Below, one piece after another: positions 1 through 24,511 of a stretch of 25,011 nt of DNA. The DNA lies in the IMG/VR virus record IMGVR_UViG_3300048837_000418, positions 1-25,011 of that record; one strand, 5' to 3'. The notes beneath the pieces were generated by a model. The model had not been told where the DNA came from and ran no database searches. It saw only the letters and a list, made by a program, of their open reading frames with translations. The DNA is from a virus. A program made the translations under genes and the position numbers. Every line of letters starts with the position of its first letter. The first letter of the stretch is position 1.

Positions 1-247
1 GATCGGCACCAAATTCGCACGACCTAAATGCGTTGGGGTGACTCCCACTAAGCCGGGAGAACCCGGTTTAGGCCACGCAACCTACCTGCCGGGTCTATCG
101 GTACCGCTAGTCACGGAAACGGGCAGGGTGCGAACCAAATTCGCTGCGACCCTCCCGCTGCGAAATCTCGCAAGTCGTGGTCACGACGTAAGCGAGCGCC
201 ATCGGGCTGACCGCCGTGGGTGGCACCTACAAGGGCGTGTCGTCGTT
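1..247 (+). other. Structured non-coding region of unknown identity
   Basis: No convincing protein gene is seen here. The sequence forms a chain of strong hairpins on the + strand: a 10-bp stem with an AGAA loop at 48-71, a long imperfect hairpin around 120-165 (CGGG-AGGGT pairing with ACCCT-CCCG, with an inner GCGAA/TTCGC stem), and a nested hairpin around 167-210 (TCTCGC/GCGAG enclosing GTCGTG/CACGAC). This density of pairing suggests a functional RNA. It could be a 5' extension of the permuted tmRNA precursor, the pseudoknot domain of an ordinary one-piece tmRNA whose 5' half lies upstream of the window, or a separate small RNA. I found no tag-like reading frame ending in AA in the first 40 bases, which argues weakly against the one-piece tmRNA reading. 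Identity is not established. Confidence 0.35.
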
Positions 248-600
248 GGCACCCTGTATTGCTGTGTGAAGTTTCGGTTCACTGTTTCGGACGGCGGTTC
301 AATTCCGCCCGGGTCCACCAGAAAGCGCCCTCATGCTACGTCAGGGCGCTTTCTCATGGGCCTGCAAGGTTTCGACGGGACGGAATGCGCCGCGATGGAC
401 AGCACGATAGCCGACTGCCGTAAGCAGCGGAAAACCTCAAGCGCCAATGATCCGGTGTTTGCTCACGCCCAAGCGGCCTGAGCCGGAGTCCGCGCACTCT
501 GTTACCAGACGCGCAGCCGGGATTTCTCCCGGCACCTTTAACCCTGCCGCGCGCCGAACGCCACAAGGGCTTCGCGCGGTTTGCCCGAACGCCACGGGCA
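248..600 (+). ncRNA. ssrA: Circularly permuted (two-piece) tmRNA
   Basis: tmRNA rescues stalled ribosomes and tags the unfinished protein for degradation. The acceptor piece comes first: a T-arm (GGCGG-TTCAATT-CCGCC, about 293-309) and an acceptor 3' strand ending in encoded CCA at 320. A spacer with an 11-bp hairpin (321-331/343-353) follows. The coding piece starts at about 358 as GGGCCTG, then the conserved GGTTTCGACGGGA. GGGCCUG pairs fully with CGGGUCC of the acceptor strand (five Watson-Crick and two GU pairs), so both pieces fit one molecule. ACAGCA near 400 can pair with TGCTGT near 265 as helix 2. The tag frame is at 443-481, and pseudoknot-like pairings (547-553 with 573-579) follow it. 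The 5' boundary is a guess. Permuted tmRNAs are known in alpha- and betaproteobacteria and cyanobacteria. The alternative is an ordinary tmRNA end followed by a second, truncated copy. Confidence 0.72.
443..481 (+). other. tmRNA proteolysis-tag reading frame
   Basis: Twelve codons from a GCC resume codon read ANDPVFAHAQAA and stop at TGA (479-481). Natural tmRNA tags commonly begin AN(D) and end in two alanines, as here. It sits 85 bases into the coding piece, just after a small pseudoknot-like fold (CTGC/GCAG with CCG/CGG, about 410-430), which is the usual position. The last four residues are AQAA rather than the common ALAA. The mature tag would have a tRNA-delivered alanine before these codons. 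Confidence 0.68.
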
Positions 601-623
601 CCGGCATCCCGCCGGTTTTCTTT
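594..623 (+). terminator. Intrinsic terminator after the tmRNA
   Basis: CCGGC (601-605) pairs with GCCGG (611-615) across an ATCCC loop, with extra GC-rich flanking sequence upstream, followed by TTTTCTTT (616-623). It would end the tmRNA transcript and separate it from the phage lysis genes. Confidence 0.65.
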
Positions 624-3258: not shown

Positions 3259-3681
3259 ATGGCCCGCAAGCCGACTCCGCACAACCTGAAGGTGATCGCC
3301 GGGACGGATCGTCCTGACCGTGCGCCGCCGAAGGACATGCCGGAGTTCGACTCGGTTTCGGTGATGCCGGCGCCGCCGCAGCATCTGAATCCGGATGGCC
3401 GGGAAATGTGGTTCGACATCGGCGGCAAGTTGGTCGACGCCAAGGTGCTGCAGTCGGTCGACCTGTACGCGCTCGAACAACTGTGCGTTCGCTGGCAGTC
3501 GCACCGCCAGCTCGCGAAGGCGGGCATCCCGGCGACGGCTGCTGACGACAACGCGCTGAAGGCGCTGTTTTCCGAGTTCGGCCTGACGCCGGCGAGCCGT
3601 CGAAAGGTGGGAGTGAGTGACACGAATGGCCGCCAAGGCAACGCGTTCAAGCAACGCGGCGCCGCCAACCGGCCCGCGTGA
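3259..3681 (+). CDS. terS: Terminase small subunit, P27 family
   Basis: The protein is 140 aa. The overall pattern is that of P27-type small terminases: basic N-terminus (MARKPTPHNLKVIAGT), a middle helix set (DLYALEQLCVRWQ), and the C-terminal signature LTPASRRKV. The small subunit binds the packaging site and hands the DNA to the large subunit. The end overlaps the start of the large-terminase frame by 65 bases. The ATG at 3259 has only a weak ribosome-binding site (GGAA), but no better start is visible. Confidence 0.88.
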   Translation: MARKPTPHNLKVIAGTDRPDRAPPKDMPEFDSVSVMPAPPQHLNPDGREMWFDIGGKLVDAKVLQSVDLYALEQLCVRWQSHRQLAKAGIPATAADDNALKALFSEFGLTPASRRKVGVSDTNGRQGNAFKQRGAANRPA

Positions 3682-5362
3682 TTTCGTCCAGGTCGCGACC
3701 GCGTACGCGCGCGAAGCGACCGCCGACCGAAAGGGCAAGAAGTTCGGGAAGTGGATCCGGCTCGCCGCCGCCCGCTTCCTGCGTGACCTGAAGACTGCGA
3801 AGTCCAAGGGCGCGCCGTTCAAGTTCGACCCTTGGTGGGCGAACGATGTCTGCCTGTTCGCCGAATCGCTGCCGCATGTTGAAGGCGTGTGGGACACGCC
3901 GACGATCGTGCTGCACCCGTCGCACGTGTTCTTCCTGGTGAACCTGTTCGGGTTCCGGAAGCCGGACGGCACGCGCCGATTCACCACCGCGCTGTTCGCG
4001 GTGGCGCGCAAGAACGCCAAGTCGACGCTGGCGGCGATCATCCTGCTGTACTGCCTGTGCTGCGAAGGCGAGGTCGGGCCGCAGGCGATCACCGCAGCCA
4101 CGACCGGGCAGCAGGCCCGTATCGTGTTCAACGTCGCGAAGCGGATGGTCGAGAAGACCCCGGACCTGCGCGAGGCGTTCAACTTGGAACCGTTCGCGAA
4201 CGCCATCGCGGCGTATGCGAACGGCGGGACCGCGAAGCCGATCAACGCGAAGGCGAGCACCCAGGACGGCTTGAACCCGTCCATGGTGTCGCTGGACGAA
4301 GTCCACGCGCACAAGACGCACGACTTGCTGAACGTGCTGAAGTCGGCAGCCGGTGCGCGCAAGAACCCGCTGTTTCTGTACACCACGACCGAGGGCTACG
4401 AATCGCCAGGGCCGTGGCCGGAGCAGCGCCGCTTCGCCGAGCAGCTGCTCGAACAGGCGGTGGAAGCCGAGCACTACCTCGCGCTGATCTACTCGGTCGA
4501 CGAAGCCGACCACGACTTCGACCCGAAGTGCTGGATCAAGGCCAATCCGCTGGCCGACGTGAACGCGATCCTGCTGAAGGAGATCGCGAAGGAAGCGATC
4601 GAGGCCAAGGCGATGCCAGGCCGGCACGCCGAGTTCAAGATCAAGCGCCTGAACCGGCGCGCCGCGGCGGCGAATGCGTGGGTCAACATCGAGCGGTGGC
4701 TCCGGTGCTCAGGCGACGCCGACGAAGAAGTGCTGCTGCGCACGCCGTGCGTCGGCGCGCTCGACCTCGCGAGCACGCGCGACATGTGCGCGTTCGCGCT
4801 GGTCTGGCGCATCGGCGACCGGTGGGTGGTCCGGGTCTGGTACTGGGTGCCGGCAGATGCCGTGGCCCAGCGCACCGAGCGCGGTACCGTGCCCTATGCC
4901 GGATGGGTGGCCTCCGGGCACATCACGCAGACCGATGGCGACGTCACCGACTACGCGGCGATCGAGGCCAAGGTCAACGAACTGCGCGAGCGGTACCAGG
5001 TGACGCAGATCGCCTATGACCAGTGGAACGCGAGCGACTTGGTGAACCGCCTGGTGGCCGACGGCGCGCCGATGGTGCAGTTCATCCAGGGCGCGCGCAG
5101 CTACCACCCGGCCATGCAGGAACTGGAAATGGCCTACACCTCCGGGCGCCTGGATCACGCCGGCAACCCGGTGCTCACCTGGAACGCGGCCAACCTGGTC
5201 GCGCGGCAGGACCAGAACCTCAACAACGCGCCTGACCGCAAGCGGTCGGCCGACAAGATCGACGGCATGTGTGCGGTGCTCATGGGCATCGGCACGACGC
5301 TGGCGAAACCCGAACCCACCCCGCAGTCGGTCTATGACCGGCGCGAAATGCTGATGGTGTGA
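3617..5362 (+). CDS. terL: Terminase large subunit (packaging ATPase/nuclease)
   Basis: The protein is 581 aa from GTG 3617 (AGGTGG six bases before). An ATG at 3626 is a less well-spaced alternative. The ATPase domain has a Walker A-like loop VARKNAKS (residues 129-136) and Walker B MVSLDE (Asp227, Glu228). The second half is an RNase-H-like nuclease, with the first acidic residue likely Asp383 in GALDLAST and later acidic positions around IAYDQW. The sequence fits the HK97-like Terminase_1 group in length and motif order. It drives DNA into the prohead through the portal and cuts the ends, probably with the HNH protein. Confidence 0.95.
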   Translation: MTRMAAKATRSSNAAPPTGPRDFVQVATAYAREATADRKGKKFGKWIRLAAARFLRDLKTAKSKGAPFKFDPWWANDVCLFAESLPHVEGVWDTPTIVLHPSHVFFLVNLFGFRKPDGTRRFTTALFAVARKNAKSTLAAIILLYCLCCEGEVGPQAITAATTGQQARIVFNVAKRMVEKTPDLREAFNLEPFANAIAAYANGGTAKPINAKASTQDGLNPSMVSLDEVHAHKTHDLLNVLKSAAGARKNPLFLYTTTEGYESPGPWPEQRRFAEQLLEQAVEAEHYLALIYSVDEADHDFDPKCWIKANPLADVNAILLKEIAKEAIEAKAMPGRHAEFKIKRLNRRAAAANAWVNIERWLRCSGDADEEVLLRTPCVGALDLASTRDMCAFALVWRIGDRWVVRVWYWVPADAVAQRTERGTVPYAGWVASGHITQTDGDVTDYAAIEAKVNELRERYQVTQIAYDQWNASDLVNRLVADGAPMVQFIQGARSYHPAMQELEMAYTSGRLDHAGNPVLTWNAANLVARQDQNLNNAPDRKRSADKIDGMCAVLMGIGTTLAKPEPTPQSVYDRREMLMV

Positions 5363-5366
5363 CTCA

Positions 5367-6617
5367 ATGGCATGGCTTGACTGGCTGCGGACCCCGAAAA
5401 ATCGAGCGTCCGGCGCCGGCGGTGCGCGTGCCGCATTCGAAGCGCTGGATCTGAACGATCCGCTGATTGCCGAATTCCTCCGCAATGGCGAGCTGGCAAA
5501 CAGCGGCGCGACCGTGAACCGCGACAGCGCGATGCGCGTGGCCGCGGTCTATGCCTGCGTCCGCATCATCGCCGGCGCGGTGTCGTCGATGCCGCTGAAG
5601 CTGTACACGCAGCAGGATCGCACCCGCGTCGAGGCGTCCGACCATCCGATCAATCGGCTGATCGCCCACAAGCCGAACGAATGGCAGACATCGAAGCGCT
5701 GGCGGCACCTGATGCAGTCGCACATGCTGCTCGACGGCAACGGCTACTCGCTGATCGCGGGTGGCCGCCGTCGTCCGCTGGCGCTGTATCCGCTCGATCC
5801 GAAGCGCATGCAGGTCGAACAGAAGGCCGACTTGTCGCTGTCGTACCGGTACGAAAAGAAGAACGGTCATAGCGTCACTTTCGACCAGGACGAGATCCTG
5901 CACCTGCGCGGCATGTCGCTCGATGGCATCACCGGCCTGTCGCCTGTTGCGTACGCGCGCGAAGCCATCGGCCTGGCGATTCAGGGCGAGCGCCACGGCG
6001 CGTCGCTGCACAAGAACGGCATGCAGGTCGGGTCTGTGCTGAAGTTTCCGAATGGCTTGTCCGATGCCGCCTACAAGCGGCTGAAGGACGGTCTCGAACA
6101 GTTCCGCGGCACCGCCAACGCGCACAAGAACCTGATCCTCGAAGAGGGCGGCGACTTCGCGGCGACCATGAGTAACGTCGACGCGCAGTGGCTGGAAAAC
6201 CGCAAGTTCCAGCGCGGCGACATCTTCATGTTTTACGGCGTGCCACCGCACATGGCTGGCGACACCGAGAAGTCGACCAGCTGGGGCACCGGCCTCGAAC
6301 AGCAGTCGCAGGGATTCGTCAGCTACACACTCGACGACTGGCTGACCGAGTGGGAGCAATCCCTCGCGGCTGCGCTGGTCACCGACGACACCCAGTATTT
6401 CAAGTTCACGCGCGCCTCGCTGGTGCGCGGCGACATCAAGACGCGCTACGGCGCCTACGCCGTCGGCCTGACCAACGGATTCCTGACCCCGAACGAATGC
6501 CGCGCAATGGAAGAACTGCCTCCGATGGACGGCGGCGACACCCTGCGCGTGCCTCTGAACACGGCACCGATCACCGACGCGAAGGAAACGGAAGATGAGC
6601 CTGCGACCCCTGCCTGA
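5367..6617 (+). CDS. Portal protein, HK97 family
   Basis: The protein is 416 aa, the usual length for HK97-type portals. Recognisable features are AVYACVRIIAGAVSSMPLKLY near residues 55-80, the stretch LLDGNGYSLI (about 120-130), EILHLRG, and the C-terminal FYGVPPHMAGD segment. The dodecameric portal sits at one capsid vertex and is the channel for DNA entry and exit and the docking point for head-tail connectors. It begins 4 bases after the terL stop and ends 23 bases inside the protease gene. Confidence 0.95.
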   Translation: MAWLDWLRTPKNRASGAGGARAAFEALDLNDPLIAEFLRNGELANSGATVNRDSAMRVAAVYACVRIIAGAVSSMPLKLYTQQDRTRVEASDHPINRLIAHKPNEWQTSKRWRHLMQSHMLLDGNGYSLIAGGRRRPLALYPLDPKRMQVEQKADLSLSYRYEKKNGHSVTFDQDEILHLRGMSLDGITGLSPVAYAREAIGLAIQGERHGASLHKNGMQVGSVLKFPNGLSDAAYKRLKDGLEQFRGTANAHKNLILEEGGDFAATMSNVDAQWLENRKFQRGDIFMFYGVPPHMAGDTEKSTSWGTGLEQQSQGFVSYTLDDWLTEWEQSLAAALVTDDTQYFKFTRASLVRGDIKTRYGAYAVGLTNGFLTPNECRAMEELPPMDGGDTLRVPLNTAPITDAKETEDEPATPA

Positions 6618-7428
6618 AATCCGGGCGGATGCATCGATCCAGAACGCGCGCTGGGAAGTCCGGCCGGATGCGCTGGAGCGGTTCATCCCGCACGCCGCCG
6701 ACGCCGGCGACCCGGAAACCATCACGATCTATGACCAGATCGGCGTCGACGTATGGACGGGCGAGGGCGTCACCGCCAAGCGCATCGCCGGTGCGCTCCG
6801 CTCGATCGGCGAACGCGATATCCGCGTGAACATCAACAGCCCCGGCGGCGACTTCTTCGAAGGCGTCACGATCTACAACCTGCTGCGCGAGCACAAGGCC
6901 AAAGTCACGGTGCGCGTGCTCGGTGTGGCGGCGTCGGCGGCGTCGATCGTCGCCATGGCCGGCGACGAGATCGAGATCGCCGTGGCCTCGCACCTGATGA
7001 TTCACAACGCCTGGGCGGTCGTGGTCGGCAACCGGCATGACCTCGAACAGGCGCAGAACGCGCTCGCATCGTTCGATGGCTCGATGGCCGACATCTACTC
7101 GGCCCGCACCGGCATCGATCGCAAGAAGGTCGCGTCGATGATGGACGCCGAGACGTGGATCAGCGCCGACGCGGCCGTGTCCGGCGGCTGGGCCGATCGC
7201 AAGATCAACGAGCCTGCGAAGCCGGAAGGCATCGAGGCCAAGCAGACCCGCACGCTCGCGGTCGCCGAAGCGGCGTTCGCGCGGGCCGGGCTGTCCCGCA
7301 GCGAGCGCCGCTCGCTGTTGAAAGACCTGACGAATTCCAGTGGCACGCCGAGCGCTGCCGCGTACGCCATGCCGGGCGCTGGCGACCTTGCTGCAGCTCT
7401 GCAGCGTCTCCAAAGCAACCTCAAGTAA
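6595..7428 (+). CDS. Head maturation protease, ClpP-like (S14)
   Basis: The protein is 277 aa. A Clp protease fold spans residues about 45-205. INSPGG (80-85) is the oxyanion-loop motif. Ser114 in GVAASAAS aligns with the ClpP nucleophile and His137 in MIHNAW with the catalytic histidine. The catalytic acid probably lies near DAETWISADAAV. The protease is expected to remove the N-terminal scaffold segment of the capsid protein encoded next and then degrade itself. The start ATG at 6595 follows GGAAACGGAAG and overlaps the portal end by 23 bases. The C-terminal about 70 residues are a less conserved tail. Confidence 0.93.
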   Translation: MSLRPLPEIRADASIQNARWEVRPDALERFIPHAADAGDPETITIYDQIGVDVWTGEGVTAKRIAGALRSIGERDIRVNINSPGGDFFEGVTIYNLLREHKAKVTVRVLGVAASAASIVAMAGDEIEIAVASHLMIHNAWAVVVGNRHDLEQAQNALASFDGSMADIYSARTGIDRKKVASMMDAETWISADAAVSGGWADRKINEPAKPEGIEAKQTRTLAVAEAAFARAGLSRSERRSLLKDLTNSSGTPSAAAYAMPGAGDLAAALQRLQSNLK

Positions 7429-7439
7429 GGGAGTCACCC

Positions 7440-8732
7440 ATGAAGAACCATGCACTGTCGGACGGTATCCGTCGCGGCATCCAGGCCGTGCGCGCCGAAA
7501 CGGTGTCGCTGGCCGATCTCGTTCGCAACGTCGAAGCCGTCAATCGCGCCTTCGAAGAGTTCAAGGCCACGAACGACCAGAAGCTCGCCGCGCTCGCCAA
7601 GTCCGGTTCGGTTGATGCGCTCGTGACCGAAAAGCTCGACCGCATCAATGCCGACATCACCAAGCACCAGGCGGCGATCGACGAAACCACCAAGATCCTC
7701 GCGCGCATCCGCGCCGGCGGTGCTGGTGGCAACGAACTGTCGCCCGAAGCCTCGGCATACCGCGGTAACTTCAATGCCTACTTCCGCCGCGGCGAGAACG
7801 AGGGTGAGGTCAAGCAGTTCAACGCGGCAGCCACGCGCGGCTCGAACCCCGATGGCGGCTATCTGGTCCCCGACCAGATGGAAAGCACCATCGACCGCGT
7901 GCTCGGCACCGTTTCGGCCGTGCGCAGCATCGCCCGCGTCATCAGCATCAGTGGCGCCAGCTACTCGAAGTTGGTGAACCAGGGCGGCGCAACGTCGGGC
8001 TGGGTGGGCGAGAACGATGCGCGCGGCTCGACCAGCACGCCGACGCTCTCCAAGCTGGAATTCCAGGCCATGGAGATCTACGCCAACCCGTACGCCTCGC
8101 AGACGCTGCTCGACGATGCATCGGTCGACATCGGCGCCTGGCTGGCTGATGAAGTCGCGATCGAGTTCGCCGAGGAAGAAGGCGCTGCCTTCGTCACCGG
8201 CAACGGCGTCGCCAAGCCGCGCGGCCTGCTGTCGTACGACTTCGTCGCGAATGCGTCCTGGTCGTGGGGCAAGGTCGGTTACGTCGCCAGCGGCAAGTCC
8301 GCAACGCTCGACACCGACACCGGCAAGAACGGCGCGGAGAAGCTGATCTCGCTGATCCACGCGCTGAAGCAGGGCTATCGTCAGAACGCCCGCTTCATGA
8401 TGAACACGACCACGCTGGAAACCCTTCGCTCTCTGAAGGACGCCAACGCGCAGTACGTGTGGCAGCCGTCGATCAAGGAAGGCGTGCCGGCCACGCTGTT
8501 CGGCTACCAGGTCACCGACGACGACAACATGCCGAACATCGGCGCGGACCAGTACCCGATCCTGTTCGGCGACTTCCAGCGGGCCTACCTGATCGTCGAT
8601 CGCCAGGGCATCCGCGTGTTGCGCGATCCGTACAGCAACAAGCCGTACGTCAGCTTCTACACCACGAAGCGCGTCGGCGGCGGCATCCAGAACTTCCAGG
8701 CCATCAAGGCGCTGAAGATCGCGACGTCGTAA
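7440..8732 (+). CDS. Major capsid protein, HK97 gp5 family
   Basis: The protein is 430 aa from ATG 7440, which is preceded by AAGGGAG at good spacing. Open frame continues upstream but lacks a comparable start signal. Residues about 1-95 are charged, helical, coiled-coil-like sequence, the scaffolding delta-domain that the upstream protease removes. The mature shell domain starts near NPDGGYLVPDQM and contains the usual E-loop/P-domain landmarks (FVTGNG, GYQVTDDDNMP, and YIVDRQGIRVLRDP-like sequence near the end). Cleavage should occur between the coil and the shell domain, around residues 95-130. Confidence 0.95.
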   Translation: MKNHALSDGIRRGIQAVRAETVSLADLVRNVEAVNRAFEEFKATNDQKLAALAKSGSVDALVTEKLDRINADITKHQAAIDETTKILARIRAGGAGGNELSPEASAYRGNFNAYFRRGENEGEVKQFNAAATRGSNPDGGYLVPDQMESTIDRVLGTVSAVRSIARVISISGASYSKLVNQGGATSGWVGENDARGSTSTPTLSKLEFQAMEIYANPYASQTLLDDASVDIGAWLADEVAIEFAEEEGAAFVTGNGVAKPRGLLSYDFVANASWSWGKVGYVASGKSATLDTDTGKNGAEKLISLIHALKQGYRQNARFMMNTTTLETLRSLKDANAQYVWQPSIKEGVPATLFGYQVTDDDNMPNIGADQYPILFGDFQRAYLIVDRQGIRVLRDPYSNKPYVSFYTTKRVGGGIQNFQAIKALKIATS

Positions 8733-23046: not shown

Positions 23047-23804
23047 CCGCCAAGCTCTACTACTCGCTGCATACGCCGTCATCGTGGTCAGCGACCAGCG
23101 CGAAGTCGGGCTACAGCGCCAGCAACGCCGGATCGACCGGCATCAAGCGCCCGTGGGCGTCGAATGCCACCGGCGCACAGCAGCTGATTGCCGACCTCGG
23201 AAGTTCGAAAACCATCGTGGGATTGGGCATCCAGTCGTCGCCGGTCAGCGCCATCGATGCGCGCGTGGACGGCAGCGCTACGCCCACGACCTCGCGCGGC
23301 ACCATCACCCCGGCCCAGGCATCCCACGGCATCTACCGCGGCTTGCTCGCCATGAACGTCTCGGCGCGCTACGCCAGCGCCTACTTCGACAGCCCGGCGC
23401 TGCTCGGCGCCAATGCCGGCGTCTATTCGATCGAGCCAGCGGCGTACGAGGTGGGCGCGCTATACGCATTCGGCGCGGTGATGGATCTGCCCGTCGAGCC
23501 GCTGATCGACTCGGACATTGATGCCGTCTGGCCGCAGTCCAACGAACGCCTTCCGAACGGCGCCGAGATGGTGATCACCCGCGGCGCGCCGTATCAGCGC
23601 ATCAACCTGCGGTTCCGGCCCGGCCCTGCGCACGACATCGAGAAGATCGCCCGCATCGCGCGCGCCGGCCTGTGCTGGCTCGACCTTGGCGTCGCGAGCC
23701 GCCCCGAACTGTCGTGGCCGGTGCGCTGGACGGACGACAACGCCCAGCGCCGATTCTCCGGTGGCCGCGACCAGGTCGCGCTGTCGTTCCGGGAGATCAC
23801 TTAG
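23043..23804 (+). CDS. Minor tail protein, unknown family
   Basis: The protein is 253 aa from ATG 23043 (ATGA overlap with the previous gene). The N-terminal region (SWSATSAKSGYSASNAGS, then LIADLGSSKTIVGLGIQS) resembles a discoidin-type beta-sandwich, a common carbohydrate-binding fold. The C-terminal part (LRFRPGPAHDIEKIARIARAG, RFSGGRDQVALSFREI) resembles distal-tail structural domains. As the last structural gene it may form part of the adsorption tip. Its end overlaps a convergent gene by 8 bases, with no terminator between them. Confidence 0.65.
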   Translation: MTAKLYYSLHTPSSWSATSAKSGYSASNAGSTGIKRPWASNATGAQQLIADLGSSKTIVGLGIQSSPVSAIDARVDGSATPTTSRGTITPAQASHGIYRGLLAMNVSARYASAYFDSPALLGANAGVYSIEPAAYEVGALYAFGAVMDLPVEPLIDSDIDAVWPQSNERLPNGAEMVITRGAPYQRINLRFRPGPAHDIEKIARIARAGLCWLDLGVASRPELSWPVRWTDDNAQRRFSGGRDQVALSFREIT

Positions 23805-24189
23805 CCGAGTGTGCGGGAATGTCCTGCGGCGCCTTGGGATATTTCGCAGCGTCGAACAGGACAATTCGGGCCGTGCCGTTCGCAGCGCCGCGCAGCACCA
23901 CCCAGGTGCCGGCCGGCTTGTAGAACGTCTTGACGACGGTCGCCGACACATCTGGCGATCCGGTCTCGACCGCCGCCGCCTGCGTCTGGATGACCGCAAC
24001 GGTGTAGCAGTGCACGTGCAGGTCGGCACCGGCCTGCAGCTTGTACGGCACGACGCAGGCGCCGTTGGTCGCGGGCATCTGGATGAAGGATTCGGGCGCG
24101 TCCGCCGCGCGCACAGGCGCCGCCGTTGCGATCAGGGTCGCCAGAATTGCGGACCGAAATCGCCGAGGCGGACCGAAAAGTCCCAACAA
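23797..24189 (-). CDS. Putative secreted protein, moron candidate
   Basis: The protein is 130 aa if started at TTG 24189 (another TTG at 24186). A signal peptide is clear: basic FGPPRRFRS, hydrophobic AILATLIATAAP, cleavage near VRA-AD. The mature part of about 100 residues is beta-prone with two cysteines (GACVVPY, VHCYTVAV) and an ending KYPKAPQDIPAHSAK. No family is recognised. An ATG at 24288 with GGAG eight bases upstream would read in frame through the tRNA fragment but place the signal peptide far inside. It is opposite in strand to all phage genes, overlaps the last tail gene by 8 bases and abuts the att-like site. This is the classic place for a lysogenic-conversion gene. Confidence 0.6.
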   Translation of the reverse strand: MLGLFGPPRRFRSAILATLIATAAPVRAADAPESFIQMPATNGACVVPYKLQAGADLHVHCYTVAVIQTQAAAVETGSPDVSATVVKTFYKPAGTWVVLRGAANGTARIVLFDAAKYPKAPQDIPAHSAK

Positions 24190-24383
24190 GATCGGGCCTG
24201 AAACCCTTGGTGCCGGTGGAGGGACTCGAACCCACACTGTGTCACCACAAACGGATTTTGAGTCCGGGTCACTTGTTCGCGCGATCATGAGGATAGCTCC
24301 GTTTCTGGTCCGCAATCGGTTATGAAAGCGGGCCTTGAGCGCCAATAACGGCGCGGGGTCGGTCGGAATTGCGGACCGGAATT
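24144..24383. repeat. TTGCGGACC-centred repeats flanking the tRNA fragment (integrase arm-site candidates)
   Basis: Four related copies: + strand 24144-24160 (AATTGCGGACCGAAAT core), + strand 24167-24180 (GGCGGACCGAAAAG), - strand 24301-24318 (ATTGCGGACCAGAAAC) and + strand 24365-24383 (AATTGCGGACCGGAATT). Two lie on each side of the tRNA-Leu fragment. Short repeats in mixed orientation on both arms of an att core are what tyrosine phage integrases bind. The left pair is also inside the signal-peptide coding part of the convergent gene. Confidence 0.5.
24208..24266 (-). other. 3' fragment of tRNA-Leu(CAA): attachment-site core
   Basis: On the - strand, positions 24266 to 24208 read as the last 59 bases of a class II tRNA-Leu: anticodon loop CTCAAAA with stem CGGA/TCCG, a long variable arm (TTTGTGGTGACACA), T-loop TTCGAGT, acceptor strand CACCGGC, A and encoded CCA. 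The T-stem has one mismatch. Upstream (higher coordinates) there is no D-arm or acceptor 5' strand; the similarity to a tRNA stops within the anticodon stem. This is not a functional tRNA. Phages that integrate into tRNA genes carry exactly such a 3' piece so that the host gene is restored. Confidence 0.8.
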
Positions 24384-24385
24384 CT

Positions 24386-24511
24386 TCACTTCGTCGGGCT
24401 CGTTTTGTCGCCGCGGCGCCGACGCACGTACGCCTCGGTCATCGTCACCGACGAGTGTCCAAGCTGTTGCTGCGCCTGGCGAATGTCGCCGGCTGAAGGG
24501 GCGTTCGATGA
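24386..24511 (-). pseudogene. int: Truncated tyrosine integrase (C-terminal remnant)
   Basis: The open stretch codes for 41 residues ending GDIRQAQQQLGHSSVTMTEAYV and a basic tail RRRRGDKTSPTK. LGHSSVTMTEAYV contains the conserved LGH box and the catalytic tyrosine region of phage tyrosine recombinases. The preceding catalytic domain (including the HxxR motif) and the N-terminal arm-binding domain are missing: an in-frame stop at 24512-24514 and unrelated sequence follow. It ends about 120 bases from the tRNA-Leu fragment, the normal int-att spacing, so it probably was the integrase for that site. Confidence 0.82.

Follow-up and report, generated by a model that had tools for sequence, protein, structure and literature searches.

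A permuted tmRNA gene upstream of a phage lysis cassette

The window, by which we mean the whole stretch of DNA analyzed, is a linear virus record from IMG/VR, 25,011 bases long. Near its left end we found a permuted tmRNA directly upstream of a phage lysis operon, as the original prediction had claimed; the tmRNA is recognized by the Rfam model RF04321 and by ARAGORN, and the lysis genes by an endolysin match. The elements of the tmRNA gene and the site that follows it are listed here.

223 to 541, + strand: permuted (two-piece, beta-type) tmRNA gene (RF01850 full-length, RF04321, ARAGORN tmRNA*)
260 to 320, + strand: acceptor (tRNA-like 3') piece (RF04321 alignment, direct reading)
293 to 309, + strand: T-arm, GGCGG-TTCAATT-CCGCC (direct reading)
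310 to 316, + strand: acceptor 3' strand, CGGGTCC (direct reading)
317 to 320, + strand: A (discriminator) and encoded CCA, the latter at 318 to 320 (direct reading)
321 to 357, + strand: intervening segment, presumably removed on maturation (inverted repeat, fold, stem comparison with relatives)
358 to 541, + strand: coding (mRNA-like) piece (RF04321 and RF01850 alignments, acceptor pairing)
358 to 364, + strand: acceptor 5' strand, GGGCCTG (direct reading)
443 to 481, + strand: tag reading frame, ANDPVFAHAQAA, with stop TGA at 479 to 481 (ARAGORN)
600 to 624, + strand: intrinsic-terminator-like site, stem at 600 to 616 plus a T-rich tail (terminator scan)

The Rfam search proposed with the original prediction was run on the whole window, and tmRNA_permuted (RF04321) was the one gene over threshold in its 25,011 bases. 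The match covers positions 260 to 481 of the + strand with 94.9 bits (E = 1.6e-17; cut-off, 47), and the model is covered completely, from 1 to 213, above its curated cut-off. Under permissive settings, RF01850 (beta_tmRNA) aligned end to end with positions 223 to 541 (model positions 1 to 331; E = 1.6e-24), with some non-standard helix pairs and a score of 79.7 bits (gathering score, 84), which leaves the gene 4 bits short of that cut-off. ARAGORN reported a tmRNA* (permuted) at 228 to 572, and the sequence from 228 to 626 folds 3.6 standard deviations more stably than shuffled sequences. The interval first proposed for the feature, 248 to 623, thus marks the right region but misses about 25 nt on the 5' side of the gene and overruns the end of the RNA (about 541) into the terminator. 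We also considered a standard tmRNA extending from upstream bases through 320, accompanied by a second partial copy. This arrangement was ruled out: there was neither an RF00023 match nor a second RF04321 match, no second tmRNA was found in the whole viral record, and the permuted model spans both halves as one gene.

Direct reading and the RF04321 alignment both place the CCA end (320) before the 5' end (358), as had been predicted. The two strands had been described as pairing perfectly; all 7 of the 7 acceptor pairs do form, but two of them are G.U, so this wording needs qualifying. One of the G.U pairs corresponds to G3.U70 in alanine tRNAs, the pair that alanyl-tRNA synthetase (AlaRS) uses. 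A perfect 12-bp stem (320 to 331 with 343 to 354) closes the intervening segment, and we rejected this hairpin as an intrinsic terminator because no T run follows it. The predicted tag frame is present, starting at the resume codon and ending with a stop; its product ends in QAA instead of the usual L/I/V/M-AA, an ending unique to the window among the sampled viral tags. A 159-amino-acid open frame (window positions 2 to 481, + strand) spans the tmRNA gene in frame with the tag and is probably a chance frame in GC-rich DNA. The terminator expected after the tmRNA corresponds to the terminator-like site at 600 to 624, although the scan found 1 such site against 2.2 expected in shuffles, no more than chance would give and weak evidence alone. 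A search for a sigma-70-like promoter for the tmRNA found none. As judged from these features of its sequence, the window contains a complete and probably functional permuted tmRNA gene.

Phage cargo or host gene

Downstream of the tmRNA, and on the same strand, lies a contiguous siphophage late region that opens with the lysis cassette. We list its genes together with a partial tRNA gene near the right end of the window.

748 to 1401, + strand: lipoprotein-like first downstream gene with a LAGC lipobox (from sequence; no PHROG or Pfam match)
1404 to 1682, + strand: membrane-anchored coiled-coil protein, phrog_5962 (PHROG match)
1679 to 2077, + strand: endolysin, M15 peptidase type (phrog_465, E = 4e-37; Pfam match below cut-off)
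2080 to 2370, + strand: putative holin-like small membrane protein (sequence reading; no family match)
Between the holin-like gene and the terminase in the listed order, + strand: HNH endonuclease
3259 to 5362, + strand: terminase small and large subunits (phrog_83, phrog_9)
5367 to 8732, + strand: portal, head maturation protease and major head protein (siphophage late region)
24208 to 24266, - strand: partial tRNA-Leu(CAA) gene, 3' half only, resembling an attP core (tRNA match)

Genes for a head-tail adaptor, a major tail protein and a tape measure protein follow further along the same strand. Between the tail genes and the tRNA-Leu half, positions 23797 to 24186 (- strand) encode a possible secreted protein with a signal-like start and no family match.

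The right side of the tmRNA therefore consists of phage genes, while on the left side the record holds only 222 nt, without a match. Two origins had been offered, a gene borne by the phage or one of the host at the edge of a prophage; our analysis favors the former and disfavors the latter, with the upstream 222 nt too short to settle the matter. In positions 1 to 222 we found no recognizable phage gene, no match to the phage collection at either the DNA or the protein level, and no Rfam family except the tmRNA. A structured RNA or gene in this flank was rejected as a candidate, as its fold is no better than that of shuffles (z = -1.0) and it lacks matches.

The short, matchless flank is one reason to consider that the tmRNA is the host's own permuted ssrA, with a prophage integrated beside it. 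Another comes from phages with related terminases, which do adjoin host ssrA: a Dyella prophage (terminase match, 62%; L246:5994-6345) abuts a standard-form host ssrA, and a viral record (L003; 69%) terminates within a standard tmRNA, in its 3' part (L094), which suggests that ssrA is the attachment site of phages with related terminases. In these relatives, however, the ssrA gene is of standard form, at the tail end and in the opposite orientation, whereas the window has an intact permuted gene at its lysis end. We tested 24 IMG/VR records with related terminases and found no permuted tmRNA above the cut-off in any of them; within the sampled part of this phage lineage, then, the gene is not conserved.

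The tRNA-Leu half also bears on this question. It matches a Dyella-family genome at 97% over 59 nt, whereas the best match among sampled genomes of the order Burkholderiales reached 90%, and this comparison suggests that the host of the phage lies in or near the Dyella family. Since phage-like sequence flanks the half tRNA on both sides, it would be better explained as an attP or a tandem junction than as the border of host DNA. This attP-like site is 23.7 kb from the tmRNA, and its presence as a separate site means that the tmRNA is not the recognizable attachment site. Nor does the record look like one in which ssrA was the point of attachment: its tmRNA gene is intact and single, and its right end shows tRNA-Leu, not tmRNA. 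Beside the tRNA half, positions 24384 to 24509 (- strand) encode a possible integrase C-terminal remnant of about 42 amino acids with an in-frame stop just upstream; it has no Pfam match and weak matches to phage integrases only, and the phage may have lost its integrase.

When 234 genomes of the Dyella family were searched, strong permuted matches were found in 2 (136.8 and 134.1 bits), and all others scored at or below about 52 bits, the level at which standard tmRNAs cross-react with the permuted model. Both strong copies lie within prophages: the first has Erf and exonuclease genes as neighbors, and the second (L249) is flanked by DnaB helicase and terminase genes, at the early/late border. 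Each of the two genomes has a standard ssrA as well. In a host of this family, a permuted copy would thus be an extra, mobile gene. The acceptor stem likewise argues against a host gene: GGGCCTG/CGGGTCC fits the phage type and occurs in 0 of 28 sampled cellular permuted genes, which have GGGG-type acceptors and short stems. Sampled phage acceptors are mostly GGGCCTG/CAGGTCC, a figure favored by the GGGCCTG-containing pattern with which most phage rows were found. The closing stem has a median length of 12 bp in viral copies and reaches at least 7 bp in 58 of 65 of them, compared to 5 of 28 cellular ones. On this evidence, and since the record itself is viral, we regard a host ssrA at a prophage edge as unlikely. 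We think it likely that the tmRNA is cargo of a temperate-type siphophage, placed where the late region begins, and that it is an ordinary two-piece tmRNA for ribosome rescue.

Relatives in phages and chromosomes

The best match in the phage collection was Stenotrophomonas phage vB_Sm_QDWS359 (ON331942; about 72% DNA identity), which has a permuted tmRNA scoring 108.7 bits. Xanthomonas phage Rb1 and Stenotrophomonas phage DLP_6 also have permuted tmRNAs that their records leave unannotated, so that three public Xanthomonadales phage records (ON331942, PQ569993 and KU682439; L082, L317 and L318) carry such unannotated genes; in QDWS359, an annotated hypothetical protein runs antisense across the gene. 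An exact-pattern scan of IMG/VR for the window tmRNA gave no match. Another pattern scan returned at least 120 loci, dozens of which are permuted tmRNAs by ARAGORN, and such genes are common in IMG/VR. We found no structural genes common to the window and the tmRNA-bearing contigs beyond weak matches.

In phylogenetic trees, all phage copies fell outside the alphaproteobacterial clade (100/100) and grouped with beta-type genes. Copies from Xanthomonadales phages and prophages form a supported clade (100/100) with three IMG/VR contigs and four chromosomes, and the window copy lies outside it, on a long branch (0.42 to 0.45) with no well-supported sister. In a first tree, cellular beta genes appeared nested among phage ones; this was dropped, as most moved outside when five beta genes were used, and we make no claim of origin. 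A long branch, an RF01850 score below the cut-off, an unusual tag end and, at the far end of the contig, no more than a remnant of a possible integrase would all suit a decaying, functionless relic of a captured tmRNA. We consider this improbable, given that no damage is seen in the acceptor, T-arm, CCA, closing stem or tag stop and that the fold is well above shuffles.

The four chromosomes in the supported clade belong to the Dyella order (L320 to L323, in genomes G683, G503, G688 and G589, respectively). Their permuted copies have apparently non-phage surroundings, a separate standard ssrA in the genome and odd tags such as ANADYYDQNEQDTLLAA and ANDPYYNQIEQKELLVA, and are possibly retained phage tmRNAs. 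In another genome of this order (G438; L319), the permuted tmRNA is of the alphaproteobacterial type and lies close to a thyA-like gene, and a search of that genome found no standard one; this case could be misplaced, mixed or transferred.

Proposed mechanism and place among known tmRNAs

We propose that the tmRNA gene sits at the start of the late region, between early genes outside the record and the lysis cassette, and that it would be transcribed whole as a single precursor. The 12-bp stem would draw the 5' end close to the CCA end, and host tRNA-processing enzymes would excise 321 to 357, with RNase P cutting at 358 and 3' processing proceeding to the CCA at 320. The two pieces would stay joined by pairing through the acceptor and neighboring helices, and host AlaRS would charge the CCA end via G3.U70. 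With host SmpB, the RNA could then rescue stalled ribosomes of the infected cell, presumably to the benefit of the phage, adding ANDPVFAHAQAA and stopping at the TGA. The terminator-like site would separate the tmRNA from the lysis genes, and the position of the gene could couple it to late transcription.

The adjoining lysis genes raise another reading, in which the RNA acts as a regulator or decoy that affects lysis timing, by competing with the host tmRNA or by tagging without ClpXP delivery, and not in ordinary rescue. One phage contig (L099) likewise has a permuted tmRNA between endolysin and spanin/holin genes, the QAA tag end is non-canonical, and there is a precedent in the phage tmRNA of DS6A, which lacks a CDS and inhibits endogenous tmRNA in E. 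coli (PMC11915505). The window tmRNA, however, has a full tag frame and charging determinants, and other relatives adjoin recombination, replication or tRNA genes, which leaves no fixed link to lysis; we hold this reading to be quite unlikely. Because the relatives occupy several different positions, we claim no lysis function for the phage-borne rescue RNA that we favor.

Phage tmRNAs have been reported before: 53 two-piece calls were made among 18,146 phage genomes, with one described in Methylophilales phage Melnitz (PMC9004378), and 79 bacteriophage tmRNA sequences, all forms together, have been compiled (PMC11915505). The window feature is a real tmRNA gene, probably phage-borne, of a sort already known from other phages. 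It shares with RF04321 and RF01850 the order of acceptor piece, intervening segment and coding piece, the tRNA-like domain, an AND-type tag and, for the beta model, the full-length alignment, and it departs from them in its RF01850 score, its GGGCCTG/CGGGTCC acceptor, its long closing stem and its tag end. The QDWS359 gene is likewise permuted, with a GGGCCTG acceptor, a 12-bp closing stem and the tag ANDSVYAQAIAA, but its intervening segment is 110 nt long and it sits between tRNA and ribonucleotide reductase genes, not in a lysis cassette. Melnitz also encodes a permuted tmRNA, for which the authors discuss a possible link to nearby lysis-timing genes, but its two-piece ssrA is of the alphaproteobacterial type, in a myophage and associated with a glutamine riboswitch (PMC9004378). 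Mycobacteriophage tmRNAs, the comparison made in the original prediction, resemble the window gene in being phage encoded, with matches of only 34 to 36 nt. The locus had been predicted to be notable, which holds only in part; permuted tmRNAs in phages are already known (PMC9004378) and abundant in IMG/VR, and what is specific to this copy is its lysis-adjacent position in a siphophage together with the QAA tag end.

A broader conjecture, to which we give little credence, is that a distinct phage lineage of two-piece tmRNAs has been spread by phages of gammaproteobacteria with one-piece tmRNAs, that some chromosomes have kept these as an additional tmRNA whose tag is altered, and that the QAA tag beside the lysis genes might direct products to a fate other than ClpXP degradation. 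The interest of the finding lies mainly in the fact that the likely hosts of the phage use a one-piece tmRNA. Described phage permuted tmRNAs are few, and the finding adds to them a copy next to the lysis genes of a siphophage; it also points to a group of unannotated permuted tmRNAs in phages of the Xanthomonadales, the order of their hosts, which mostly has standard ssrA. Since phage and host RNAs are unlike in both gene form and tag, the products of the two would be distinguishable in infected cells, which would make a clean test system.
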